Source: Clostridia bacterium
GTDB taxonomy: Bacteria > Bacillota > Peptococcia > DRI-13 > UBA5745
Direction: 5' to 3'
Length of the DNA stretch: 58,404 nucleotides
Assembly: GCA_018434325.1 (NCBI GenBank)
Contig: JAHDPO010000001.1
Coordinates: 1 to 58,404 of the forward strand
The notes beneath the pieces are model-generated. The model was given only the letters and a program-made list of their open reading frames with translations, did no database searches and was not told where the DNA came from. The first letter of the stretch is position 1; every line of letters starts with the position of its first letter. This document shows positions 48,951 through 51,720 of the stretch, piece after piece. The translations under genes were made by a program, and so were the position numbers.

Positions 48951-49871
48951 TCAGCTTAAACGAATAATCATCATCGATGCGCCAAGGCTGCCGCCCAAAA
49001 GGGTAGCCGCTCCGACGATCAATGGAGCATACATCTGCAGCACTATGGTGGCCCCCGCTCCCAGGCTGACTTCTATCTCATTATAGAACTGGGATAAGGC
49101 CAAAGCCGGCGGAATCGTAGATTGAAGAATGTTGCCGCCGTTGATCACCAGACGGGTGCCCAAGATAACGCTGGCAGTGGTATTGACATGATAAGAAACA
49201 CGGTAATAGCCGGGGGTATTAACCGTAAACGTGGTATTGCCGTTAGTGAGCGTGATATCGGGAGACAGTAGCTGAACGCTGGGAAAGGAGAGATTGGTGC
49301 CGGCCACCAATACGGTGATCAAGCCGCCGGCTGTATTGGCGGCAAAGCCTGCTGTAACTGAAGGCGGTGGTGTAGGTGCGGCGGCGGCGGCAGCGCCGGT
49401 AGGACCGCTGGCGCCGGCGGGACCGGTGGAGCCGGTGGGGCCGGCAGGCCCTTCAGGGCCGACGGGGCCCGGCAGCCCTTCCGGACCGGTAGCCCCAGCT
49501 TCTCCTATGGGGCCCGCAGGTCCCGTGGGGCCTGTATCTGTGCCGGTGGGACCGGTGGAGCCGGTGGGGCCCGTTGCTCCCAAAAATACAGGTGCTCTTA
49601 AAGCTTGAGTCAACTTGCCATTTAATACAATTTGATTTTCCAGTACGGTGCCGAGCATATTGCCGACGCCATTATTGATATCCGTAACATCGGCAATGGT
49701 AGAGCCGCCGATCAACCCGGGAAGCGTGCCTATGGCATACTGGATTTTTTCCCCTTCCGTATTGATAATATGGCTGAGGGCCAACTCCTCCGAGGCAATG
49801 GAGGAAATAACCTGGTTAATTGCACTTTGTCTGTCCAGATCAGGAGTTAAGGGAAATTGCGGTTGTGACAT
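48951..49871 (-). CDS. Collagen-like surface protein (BclA-like), copy 1
   Basis: 306 residues. Residues 1-95 form an N-terminal domain shared by three neighbours ([20 protein letters not shown] near 23-42). Residues 98-159 are Gly-X-Y repeats, mostly GPT, GPA and GPE, with one four-residue break near 110. After an Ala/Pro linker the C-terminal 130 residues look like the beta-rich trimer-forming domain of BclA-type exosporium glycoproteins ([19 protein letters not shown]) and end in MMIIRLS. Thr in GPT is a likely glycosylation site. Spore-surface location is inferred from family and the sporulation gene nearby. Confidence 0.85.
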
Positions 49872-49883
49872 AGTCTTTCCTCC

Positions 49884-50789
49884 TTAACTCAAACGAGTGA
49901 TCATCAGCGTGGCCCCTGCCCCTGTTACCAAAGTCAAGTTGACCGTGGCCCCGACTACCTGCAACTGCACGGTAGCGCCTGCCGCCAAATCAACCAAAAT
50001 CTCATTGGAGTAGCTGGAAAGATTTATAACGGGATCAACCGTGGAAGCTAAAACCGGATTGCCGCTGATTACGATTCTCGTAGCCAGCAAAAGAGAGACA
50101 GTGGTATTGACGGCATAAGATATCCGGTAGCGGCCGGCTATTGAGACGGTAAAGGTAGTATTCGCTCCGTCTACCGTTATGCCGGTGGGCAGAATTTGAC
50201 CGCTGGCCAGGGGAACTGCCGTGCCGGTCAGCGTTGCGGTAAGAGGTACGCCTGTTGCATAGGCAAAGGCGGAGGTTGCCGTGGTATTGGTTCCGGTGGG
50301 GCCGGTGGCTCCGACGGGGCCGACGCCGCCGGTGGGACCGGTGGGGCCTGTTGGCCCGGTTGGGCCGGTATCGCCCACAGGGCCTTGTATTCCTGCGGGG
50401 CCAAGGGGGCCGGTGGGACCTGTTGGGCCGGTGGGACCCGTCGGGCCGCCGGGATCGCCTTGGGGGCCGGTGGGACCGGTAGCGCCGGTAGGGCCGGCCA
50501 TTTCCGATGCGGCCAAAGCTTGCTGCATTTTTGACCGCAAAAGCAGCTGATTATAGGAAGCATTTTGGAGAAGATTCTGTATGCTTTCGTTAGTATTGAG
50601 AAGATCCTCAATGGTGGCGCCAGGGCCTGTGATACCCGGCAATGTTCCCAGGACGTATTGAAGCTTTTCGCCTTCGGCATTGATAATATGGCTCAATCCC
50701 AATTCTTCCATGGCAATGGAAGATAATATTTGATTGACCACATCTTCCCTTGTAACATCCGGATTAACGGGGAAAGAAGGTTGTGACAA
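49884..50789 (-). CDS. Collagen-like surface protein (BclA-like), copy 2
   Basis: 301 residues if translation begins at the TTG at 50789, 8 nt after GAGAGG; this gives MSQPSFPV, matching MSQPQFPL of copy 1, whereas the GTG at 50798 touches the ribosome site. Same N-terminal domain ([20 protein letters not shown]), Gly-X-Y repeats at about 99-167 dominated by GPT, and a C-terminal beta-rich domain ([19 protein letters not shown]) ending LMITRLS. Lies 12 nt before copy 1 and 37 nt or so after the proline-rich paralogue, so the three form one operon. Confidence 0.85.
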
Positions 50790-50835
50790 AACTAGCACCT
50801 CTCAATTTTTTATTTTATAAGGTCTAGGATCTTTA

Positions 50836-51720
50836 CTACAGCTTAGTAAAGACTATCCGACCTCGGCGCACACGTATTTCCCTTTGGGCGCATAGGAAAA
50901 GAGATATGTAAGGGGGGCAGCAGGAACAGGGCATCCGGGCAGTTGTTTGTTTATATGAAGTACTTGGGCGTCCGCAAATATCCGGGTAGAGTCTCGTCAT
51001 AACAGGCTGCAAGCCCTTACAATGAGCGGCCAGCTTTGCTTCACCGCAAAAATATGTTGAGGGGTCGGTATCCAGGTGAAACTCGACCATATATGAACCT
51101 GCCGGGGGCACCTGTATTTGGGTGCAGTCAGCTGACGGTGAGGCTGAATTACCGGTTTTGCCGCATTTTCTCCACTGCAGCGGCTCATTACTGCGATAAG
51201 CCTTAGGTACTACCTCAAAGCTGATGGACTCGCATGAGCAGGGGGGCTGGGGAGGCCAAGGCGGCTTCGGCGGCCTGGGTGGTCTGGGTGGTGGGCAGGG
51301 CGGCTCCGGCGGCCAAGGCGGCTTCGGCGGTCTGGGCGGCCAGGGCGGCTCCGGCGGACAAGGCGGCTTCGGTGGCCAGGGTGGCTTCGGCGGTCTGGGT
51401 GGCCAGGGCGGTTCCGGCGGCCTGGGTGGACGGGGCAAGTGTTCCAGAACCTTTTCCATTTTATTTTTCAGGATCAGCTGATTTTGCATCACCATTTCCA
51501 GCAAGCCTGCCACACTTTTGTTCACTGCCAGAACATCGTCGATATCGGCAGGACATCTGCCGCAACTGGTCTGACCTAAGGCGTACTGGATCTTTTCACC
51601 TTCTGCATTAATAATGTGACTAAAAGCCACTTCTTCCAAAGCAATGGATGACAATATCATTGTTAGAGCCTGCTCCTGTGTTAAATCAGGATCTAACTTG
51701 GGAAATTCAGGCATTGACAC
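50836..51720 (-). CDS. Proline/tryptophan-repeat paralogue of the collagen-like proteins
   Basis: 294 residues, GTG start 9 nt after AGGAGG. The N-terminal domain is that of the two collagen-like neighbours ([20 protein letters not shown] near 24-43), but the middle (about 96-161) is an array of PPX triplets in which X is Arg, Lys, Glu, Trp or Cys (for example PPWPPRPPKPPWPP). This should form an extended polyproline rod instead of a collagen helix. The C-terminal 130 residues differ from the paralogues and hold about ten cysteines, suggesting disulfide crosslinking. First gene of the operon. Function unknown; a spore coat or exosporium component is likely. Confidence 0.8.
   Translation of the reverse strand: MSMPEFPKLDPDLTQEQALTMILSSIALEEVAFSHIINAEGEKIQYALGQTSCGRCPADIDDVLAVNKSVAGLLEMVMQNQLILKNKMEKVLEHLPRPPRPPEPPWPPRPPKPPWPPKPPCPPEPPWPPRPPKPPWPPEPPCPPPRPPRPPKPPWPPQPPCSCESISFEVVPKAYRSNEPLQWRKCGKTGNSASPSADCTQIQVPPAGSYMVEFHLDTDPSTYFCGEAKLAAHCKGLQPVMTRLYPDICGRPSTSYKQTTARMPCSCCPPYISLFLCAQREIRVRRGRIVFTKL

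Follow-up and report, generated by a model that had tools for sequence, protein, structure and literature searches.

A spore-fibre-type domain carrying collagen or proline-rich rods in a three-gene cassette of a Clostridia bacterium

Organization of the cassette

The window, by which is meant the whole stretch of 58,404 nucleotides that was analysed, contains three tandem open reading frames on the minus strand, which together span exactly positions 48951–51720. The gene labeled PPX (50836–51720, 294 amino acids) begins at a GTG codon located after AGGAGGTG, and its product combines an N-terminal domain of the A-ENA type, a (PPX) rod and a Cys-containing, TNF/C1q-like head. It is accompanied by COL2 (49884–50789, 301 amino acids, starting at TTG, with a possible alternative GTG upstream at 50798) and COL1 (48951–49871, 306 amino acids), in which the A-ENA-type domain is joined to a collagen rod (approximately residues 99–168 and 98–161, respectively) and a BclA_C head. 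A sequence-only reading of this locus had proposed that the three proteins are paralogues sharing one N-terminal domain, and this is borne out. The domain encompasses ∼93 residues, with 51% and 47% identity of the COL copies to that of PPX; the motif SSIA.EE...SHIIN.EGEK is invariant across PPX, COL1 and COL2, and their alignment contains 34 invariant columns.

The same reading attributed Gly-X-Y repeats and BclA-like heads to two of the paralogues, in agreement with the Pfam matches of COL1 and COL2 to Collagen (33.8 and 32.4 bits, for a cut-off of 27.2) and to BclA_C (115 and 118.7 bits, for a cut-off of 38; E 1.9e-34 and 2.7e-33). The Gly-X-Y rods, each with one interruption, are located on the minus strand at 49389–49580 in COL1 and 50286–50495 in COL2. 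The rod of the PPX protein (51238–51435, minus strand, residues 96–161) is rich in Trp, Arg, Lys and Glu, as had been described: 44 of its 66 residues are Pro, and the X positions consist of R5 W5 K4 E3 C3 Q1. Its longest unbroken (PPX) run is 15 units, compared to a mean of 1.9 and a maximum of 5 in 2000 shuffled rods, and the DNA encoding it is an internally repetitive tandem array. In the collagen triple helix, every third residue must be Gly for the three chains to pack; as the PPX rod contains no Gly (and has no Pfam match), it cannot adopt this structure. Scans of Pfam, NCBIfam and PHROGs returned no match for the PPX protein.

N-terminal domains and heads

The N-terminal domain has no match in Pfam, NCBIfam or PHROGs. 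A profile built from 92 N-domains was run against the full set of PDB sequences and gave a sole strong match, to 9ihh_A (E=5.5e-27, over positions 1–93), an entry released on 2026-03-04 under the title “Ex vivo spore-silk A-ENA fibers”; the information on A-ENA used here is drawn from the title and sequence of this entry alone. The single PPX N-domain sequence (51442–51720, minus strand) also matched 9ihh_A with phmmer (E=2.5e-14), and the domains of COL2 (50505–50789) and COL1 (49590–49871), on the same strand, were recovered with E=7.9e-40 and E=4.4e-36. AlphaFold2 models were obtained for single domains, namely the N-domain and the head. That of the PPX N-domain is a confident helical hairpin (pLDDT 88.7), with helices predicted at residues 15–52 and 60–93, for which 9ihh was the only significant Foldseek match (TM 0.78/0.81). 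A VIA comparison of the two gave a Z of 10.4, with an rmsd of 2.6 over 94 residues and 34% identity; since such a Z is unremarkable for helical hairpins, the weight of the A-ENA kinship is carried by the 34–38% sequence identity. On this basis, the shared domain is judged homologous to the 9ihh subunit over its full length, and is predicted to adopt the same helical-hairpin fold.

In addition to this homology and predicted fold, the title of the 9ihh entry provides a spore setting. The difference is that 9ihh is a stand-alone protein of 101 residues, whereas the domains of PPX, COL1 and COL2 each bear a rod and a head, all three copies being 294–306 amino acids long. A sensitive profile search of the genome from which the window is taken (a 70-contig draft, 98% complete) revealed no A-ENA gene beyond these three, all of which bear rods; a fourth, weak match (L004, E 0.48) was judged spurious. 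As there is no stand-alone copy, I class PPX, COL1 and COL2 as A-ENA-domain proteins rather than A-ENA subunits. The proposal that the shared domain directs assembly onto a surface is worded too weakly, as its solved relative is itself a fibre subunit; the proposed spore setting is supported by the homology to 9ihh, by sigma-K-type promoters in the family (see below) and by the presence of SpoIVA in the genome. A search of the available literature found no relevant paper on A-ENA fibres or on polyproline rods on spores.

The C-terminal region of the PPX protein (residues 162–294; 50839–51237, minus strand) had been described as a cysteine-rich tail. It does contain 10 Cys in 133 residues, but instead of a tail it is predicted to be a folded jelly roll. 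The AlphaFold2 model, computed from 39 aligned C-terminal domains of the PPX type, is a confident beta-sandwich (pLDDT 88.4, pTM 0.81), and its top Foldseek matches belong to the TNF/C1q family, including the exosporium proteins BxpB and ExsFA. With VIA, the C-terminal domain of F-BclA (9h38) ranks first (Z 12.7, rmsd 2.4 over 117), followed by that of BclA (Z 12.1–12.3). The PPX head has no Pfam BclA_C match, and the profile-profile comparison of PPX-type heads to BclA_C is weak (probability 32%). Its kinship to BclA is therefore supported by fold and not by sequence, and the model identifies it as a predicted, diverged TNF/C1q jelly roll. The heads of COL2 (49887–50255, E=1.2e-33) and COL1 (48954–49346, E=1.0e-34), also on the minus strand, are of the BclA_C type. 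With a TNF/C1q-like head predicted for PPX, all three proteins follow one three-part plan. The cassette is a variation on a known spore-fibre building block, in which the collagen stalk has been swapped for a proline-rich stalk in one gene, with both ends on the same plan.

This plan resembles that of BclA and F-BclA, found in the exosporium nap and the F-ENA tip fibrillum respectively, in combining a rod with a TNF/C1q-type head; the heads of COL1 and COL2 are recognized by Pfam BclA_C, and the PPX head is closest to the two proteins in fold. It differs in that the ∼93-residue A-ENA-type domain replaces the short exosporium leader, and in that the PPX protein has neither Gly-X-Y repeats nor a BclA_C sequence match. 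No exosporium-leader family was found in COL1 or COL2 by an NCBIfam scan up to E=1, and because their N-terminus is instead of the A-ENA type, they are best described as possessing BclA-like heads, not as BclA orthologues. The spore appendages of the F-ENA system, with its F-Anchor and F-BclA (PMC11952670), likewise combine a fibre or anchor domain with a collagen rod, but F-ENA subunits are beta-rich DUF4183 trimers, while the domain described here is all-alpha and unrelated in sequence; PPX, COL1 and COL2 have no DUF4183 match in Pfam. The ribbon-appendage genes GP85, CL2 and P29 of C. taeniosporum provide a further parallel: in the portion of the source available (PMC5749712), they form a cluster of spore-appendage genes that includes collagen-like proteins and their DUF11 partners, sigma-K promoters are proposed for them, and no PPX rod is seen.

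Other spore-surface genes were encountered in the same genome. DUF4183 is present at an F-ENA-type locus (contig C26, 41000–46500), where small ORFs adjoin an 846-amino-acid protein possessing several DUF4183 domains and internal repeats, which resembles the F-Anchor-3 plan described for C. aceticum; the organism may thus make F-ENA appendages too. Three collagen-like proteins encoded on contigs C9, C63 and C43 have heads of the BclA_C type but different N-termini, which are often Cys-rich; in the one on C9, the collagen rod is immediately preceded by a (CPPP)n stretch.

Family distribution, rod exchange and expression

A scan of named genomes identified at least 447 A-ENA-domain relatives, from which 79 loci were kept; their titles indicate Bacillota wherever a taxon is given, and lineages were looked up for 21. 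The domain is widespread in spore-forming Bacillota, and its conservation, anticipated in the sequence-only reading, is therefore clear. So is the modularity of the rods, since a search for the domain with other rods recovered collagen, PPX, other P-rich, PTPTPT, Ser/Thr-rich, DPDDP and DUF11-like forms. The 220 family proteins of the fetched loci were sorted into 142 with a collagen rod, 35 with a P-rich rod, 18 rod-less or short, and 25 others. Cys is found in 31 of the 35 P-rich rods versus 10 of 140 collagen rods, and 31 of the 35 P-rich-rod genes have a collagen-rod member of the family no more than 2.5 kb away. A notion of matched layer thickness was dropped, as the length of the P-rich rods is uncorrelated with that of neighbouring collagen genes (Spearman −0.06, n=31).

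A tree of N-domains places the PPX lineage together with proteins bearing collagen rods (31 rows, SH-aLRT 92). The PPX-type head, modelled from non-collagen proteins only, was found in ten collagen-rod proteins of this lineage that had been kept out of the model (E 4e-7 to 1e-21), from Syntrophomonas, Kineothrix, Herbinix, Clostridium and others. One N-domain lineage and one head family thus bear either rod, as expected if PPX stands in place of collagen, and a single change between collagen and non-collagen rods is enough among the 27 tree rows with a PPX-type head. These comparisons of sequences indicate that collagen and polyproline rods have replaced each other between constant ends. The tree is unrooted, so that the exchange could have run in either direction, and with its few columns it does not separate many of the forks. 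A strict clade of all proteins with PPX-type heads (27 rows) was rejected by the AU test (p 0.0005); rows with truncated, divergent or lost heads fall among them, and my reading is that the rejection is an effect of these rows. PPX-like rods on two distant A-ENA proteins (L005 and L014), placed elsewhere in the tree, look separately acquired.

Several further members of the family deserve mention. Four PPX-lineage proteins (L033, L041, L042 and L047) carry a (PT)n rod, a further rod type between the same ends. In one collagen-rod member of the lineage (L061, 5023–5859), the start of the rod is rich in GPP and GKP, with a composition between that of collagen and PPX. Long rods consisting only of Ser and Thr are seen in the A-ENA-domain proteins of L111, L119 and L105, and might be glycosylated stalks or resemble mucins. 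In one genus (g142; L122–L127), several genomes each possess one diverged, rod-less A-ENA-like gene, matching from approximately position 14 of the profile.

The order PPX-COL-COL is also found at three other loci (L018, L019 from the cultured Caproiciproducens galactitolivorans, and L020). As each of the three proteins clusters in the N-domain tree with its own counterpart from L019 and L018, the cassette seems to have been inherited as a set. No flanking synteny was found with the cassettes of Caproiciproducens and others, and those neighbours that Pfam annotates have housekeeping or metabolic roles. In a sister species, positions 48861–52089, encompassing the cassette and a MITE-like element, are missing: the alignment breaks off at 52090 and continues from 48860, gltB and the rsmD-side genes are directly adjacent, and a neighbouring protein is 93% identical. 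None of eight relatives possesses an A-ENA gene, and gain of the cassette by transfer is likelier than repeated loss. The MITE-like element (∼147 bp, with terminal inverted repeats of ∼26 bp) occurs in the window at 51889–52035, 168 bp upstream of the PPX gene, and at 58082–58226; about 40 full or partial copies are scattered over the genome. A GtrII-type glucosyltransferase membrane protein is encoded near the cassette (54306–56012), alongside a small sigma-70-family gene (53688–54239).

Upstream regions were examined for a sigma-K-type promoter, defined as AC-N15-18-CATANNNTA. It is present in 42 of 118 non-redundant upstream regions of the family, against 1.2 expected in shuffles and, for the remaining genes of these loci, 15 of 526 upstream regions (p=3e-22). 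Sigma-E-type promoters were also considered for the family, and were set aside as their enrichment (2 of 118) is unconvincing. There is no strict sigma-K or sigma-E promoter within the window; the PPX gene is preceded by a degenerate sigma-K-like sequence (51741–51768, minus strand, AC-N17-AATATACTT), 48 bases upstream of the start, which has two mismatches and is weak alone. Similarly placed sites are found upstream of PPX orthologues, one perfect by eye (L018) and four with one mismatch (L020, L021, L022 and L055). In a sample of 398 Bacillota genomes, SpoIVA is present in 33 of 34 A-ENA carriers versus 306 of 364 non-carriers (p=0.025), a weak association as most of the sample possesses SpoIVA. 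A paper on the Moorella spore proteome mentions neither collagen nor appendages.

Proposed assembly on the spore surface

From these observations, I propose, with a probability of roughly 0.6, that PPX, COL1 and COL2 are spore-surface proteins made late in sporulation by the mother cell, assembled via the A-ENA domain and displaying trimeric lollipops. In each, an A-ENA-type hairpin would mediate assembly, and a stiff rod would serve as the spacer between it and a TNF/C1q-type head. The A-ENA domains would most likely assemble or co-assemble on the spore of this organism to give a helical fibre or an array, with the rod-bearing subunits polymerising like the stand-alone 9ihh subunit, and the rods and heads would project from it. 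TNF/C1q-type heads are trimers, hence the proposed trimeric state of the lollipops. In the PPX protein, three polyproline-II strands would take the place of the collagen triple helix, held at their ends by the assembling domains and the head trimer. A polyproline-II helix has three residues per turn, placing all X side chains of PPX on one edge. The X residues (Arg, Lys, Glu and Trp, with Cys in most relatives) would form a ridge at every third residue, suited to inter-strand salt bridges, stacking or disulphides.

It may be, however, that a classical A-ENA fibre does not form and that the domain is an anchor only, since the genome lacks a rod-less A-ENA subunit. In this strongest of the rival explanations, possible if somewhat unlikely, the A-ENA-type domain docks each protein separately onto a layer already present on the spore or onto a different fibre, such as an F-ENA or the coat, and the rods form a hairy nap, by analogy to BclA, which is docked by its exosporium leader peptide. 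Besides the restriction of the genome to rod-bearing copies, it is favoured by the DUF4183 locus, which could supply a separate fibre, and by the role of collagen-like proteins as anchor and tip in the known F-ENA (PMC11952670). Yet the domain is not a short docking peptide; along its entire length it is related to a fibre subunit that self-assembles, and the NCBIfam scan found no exosporium leader.

The three proteins could also be minor tip or branch subunits, capping or decorating a fibre as F-BclA does on F-ENA, with the main rod-less subunit too diverged for recognition or located in a gap of the draft assembly. Rod-less A-ENA genes (∼100–145 amino acids) are indeed common in other families, often adjoining longer ones, but the sensitive profile found no further A-ENA gene here, and the cassettes of Caproiciproducens and L018 consist of three rod-bearing genes with no rod-less one nearby, making this arrangement improbable. 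That these are vegetative cell-surface or phage tail-fibre proteins, i.e., collagen-like adhesins unrelated to spores, is scarcely credible: the collagen rods match phage tail-fibre families and streptococcal and Legionella adhesin models through their Gly-X-Y composition, but the best PHROG stretches centre on the rods, the phage search gave no record matching the N-domain, neither a sorting signal nor a phage gene was noticed near the cassette, whose annotated neighbours are housekeeping or metabolic, and a link to spores is indicated by the sigma-K-type promoters and the BclA_C heads.

Returning to assembly via the A-ENA domain, a more specific and tentative version, which I consider unlikely as a whole, is a bottle-brush fibre. 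Here, rod-bearing A-ENA subunits would self-polymerise in the absence of a rod-less main subunit, mixing collagen lollipops with polyproline lollipops zipped by disulphides or salt bridges. The polyproline stalk would then represent a trimeric rod of natural origin that is not collagen, having evolved through a swap with collagen while both ends of the protein stayed the same.

A large family lacking annotation, with at least 447 relatives and interchangeable rods, is thereby linked to a spore-fibre fold whose structure was released in March 2026. It provides a natural case in which collagen and polyproline stalks have replaced one another while the assembly domain and the head family stayed the same, and makes it possible to test which functions of a collagen stalk are beyond the reach of a plain polyproline rod. 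To my knowledge, the spore surfaces of Oscillospiraceae-like bacteria have been little studied, and the cassette offers genetically defined spore-surface candidates for these organisms.
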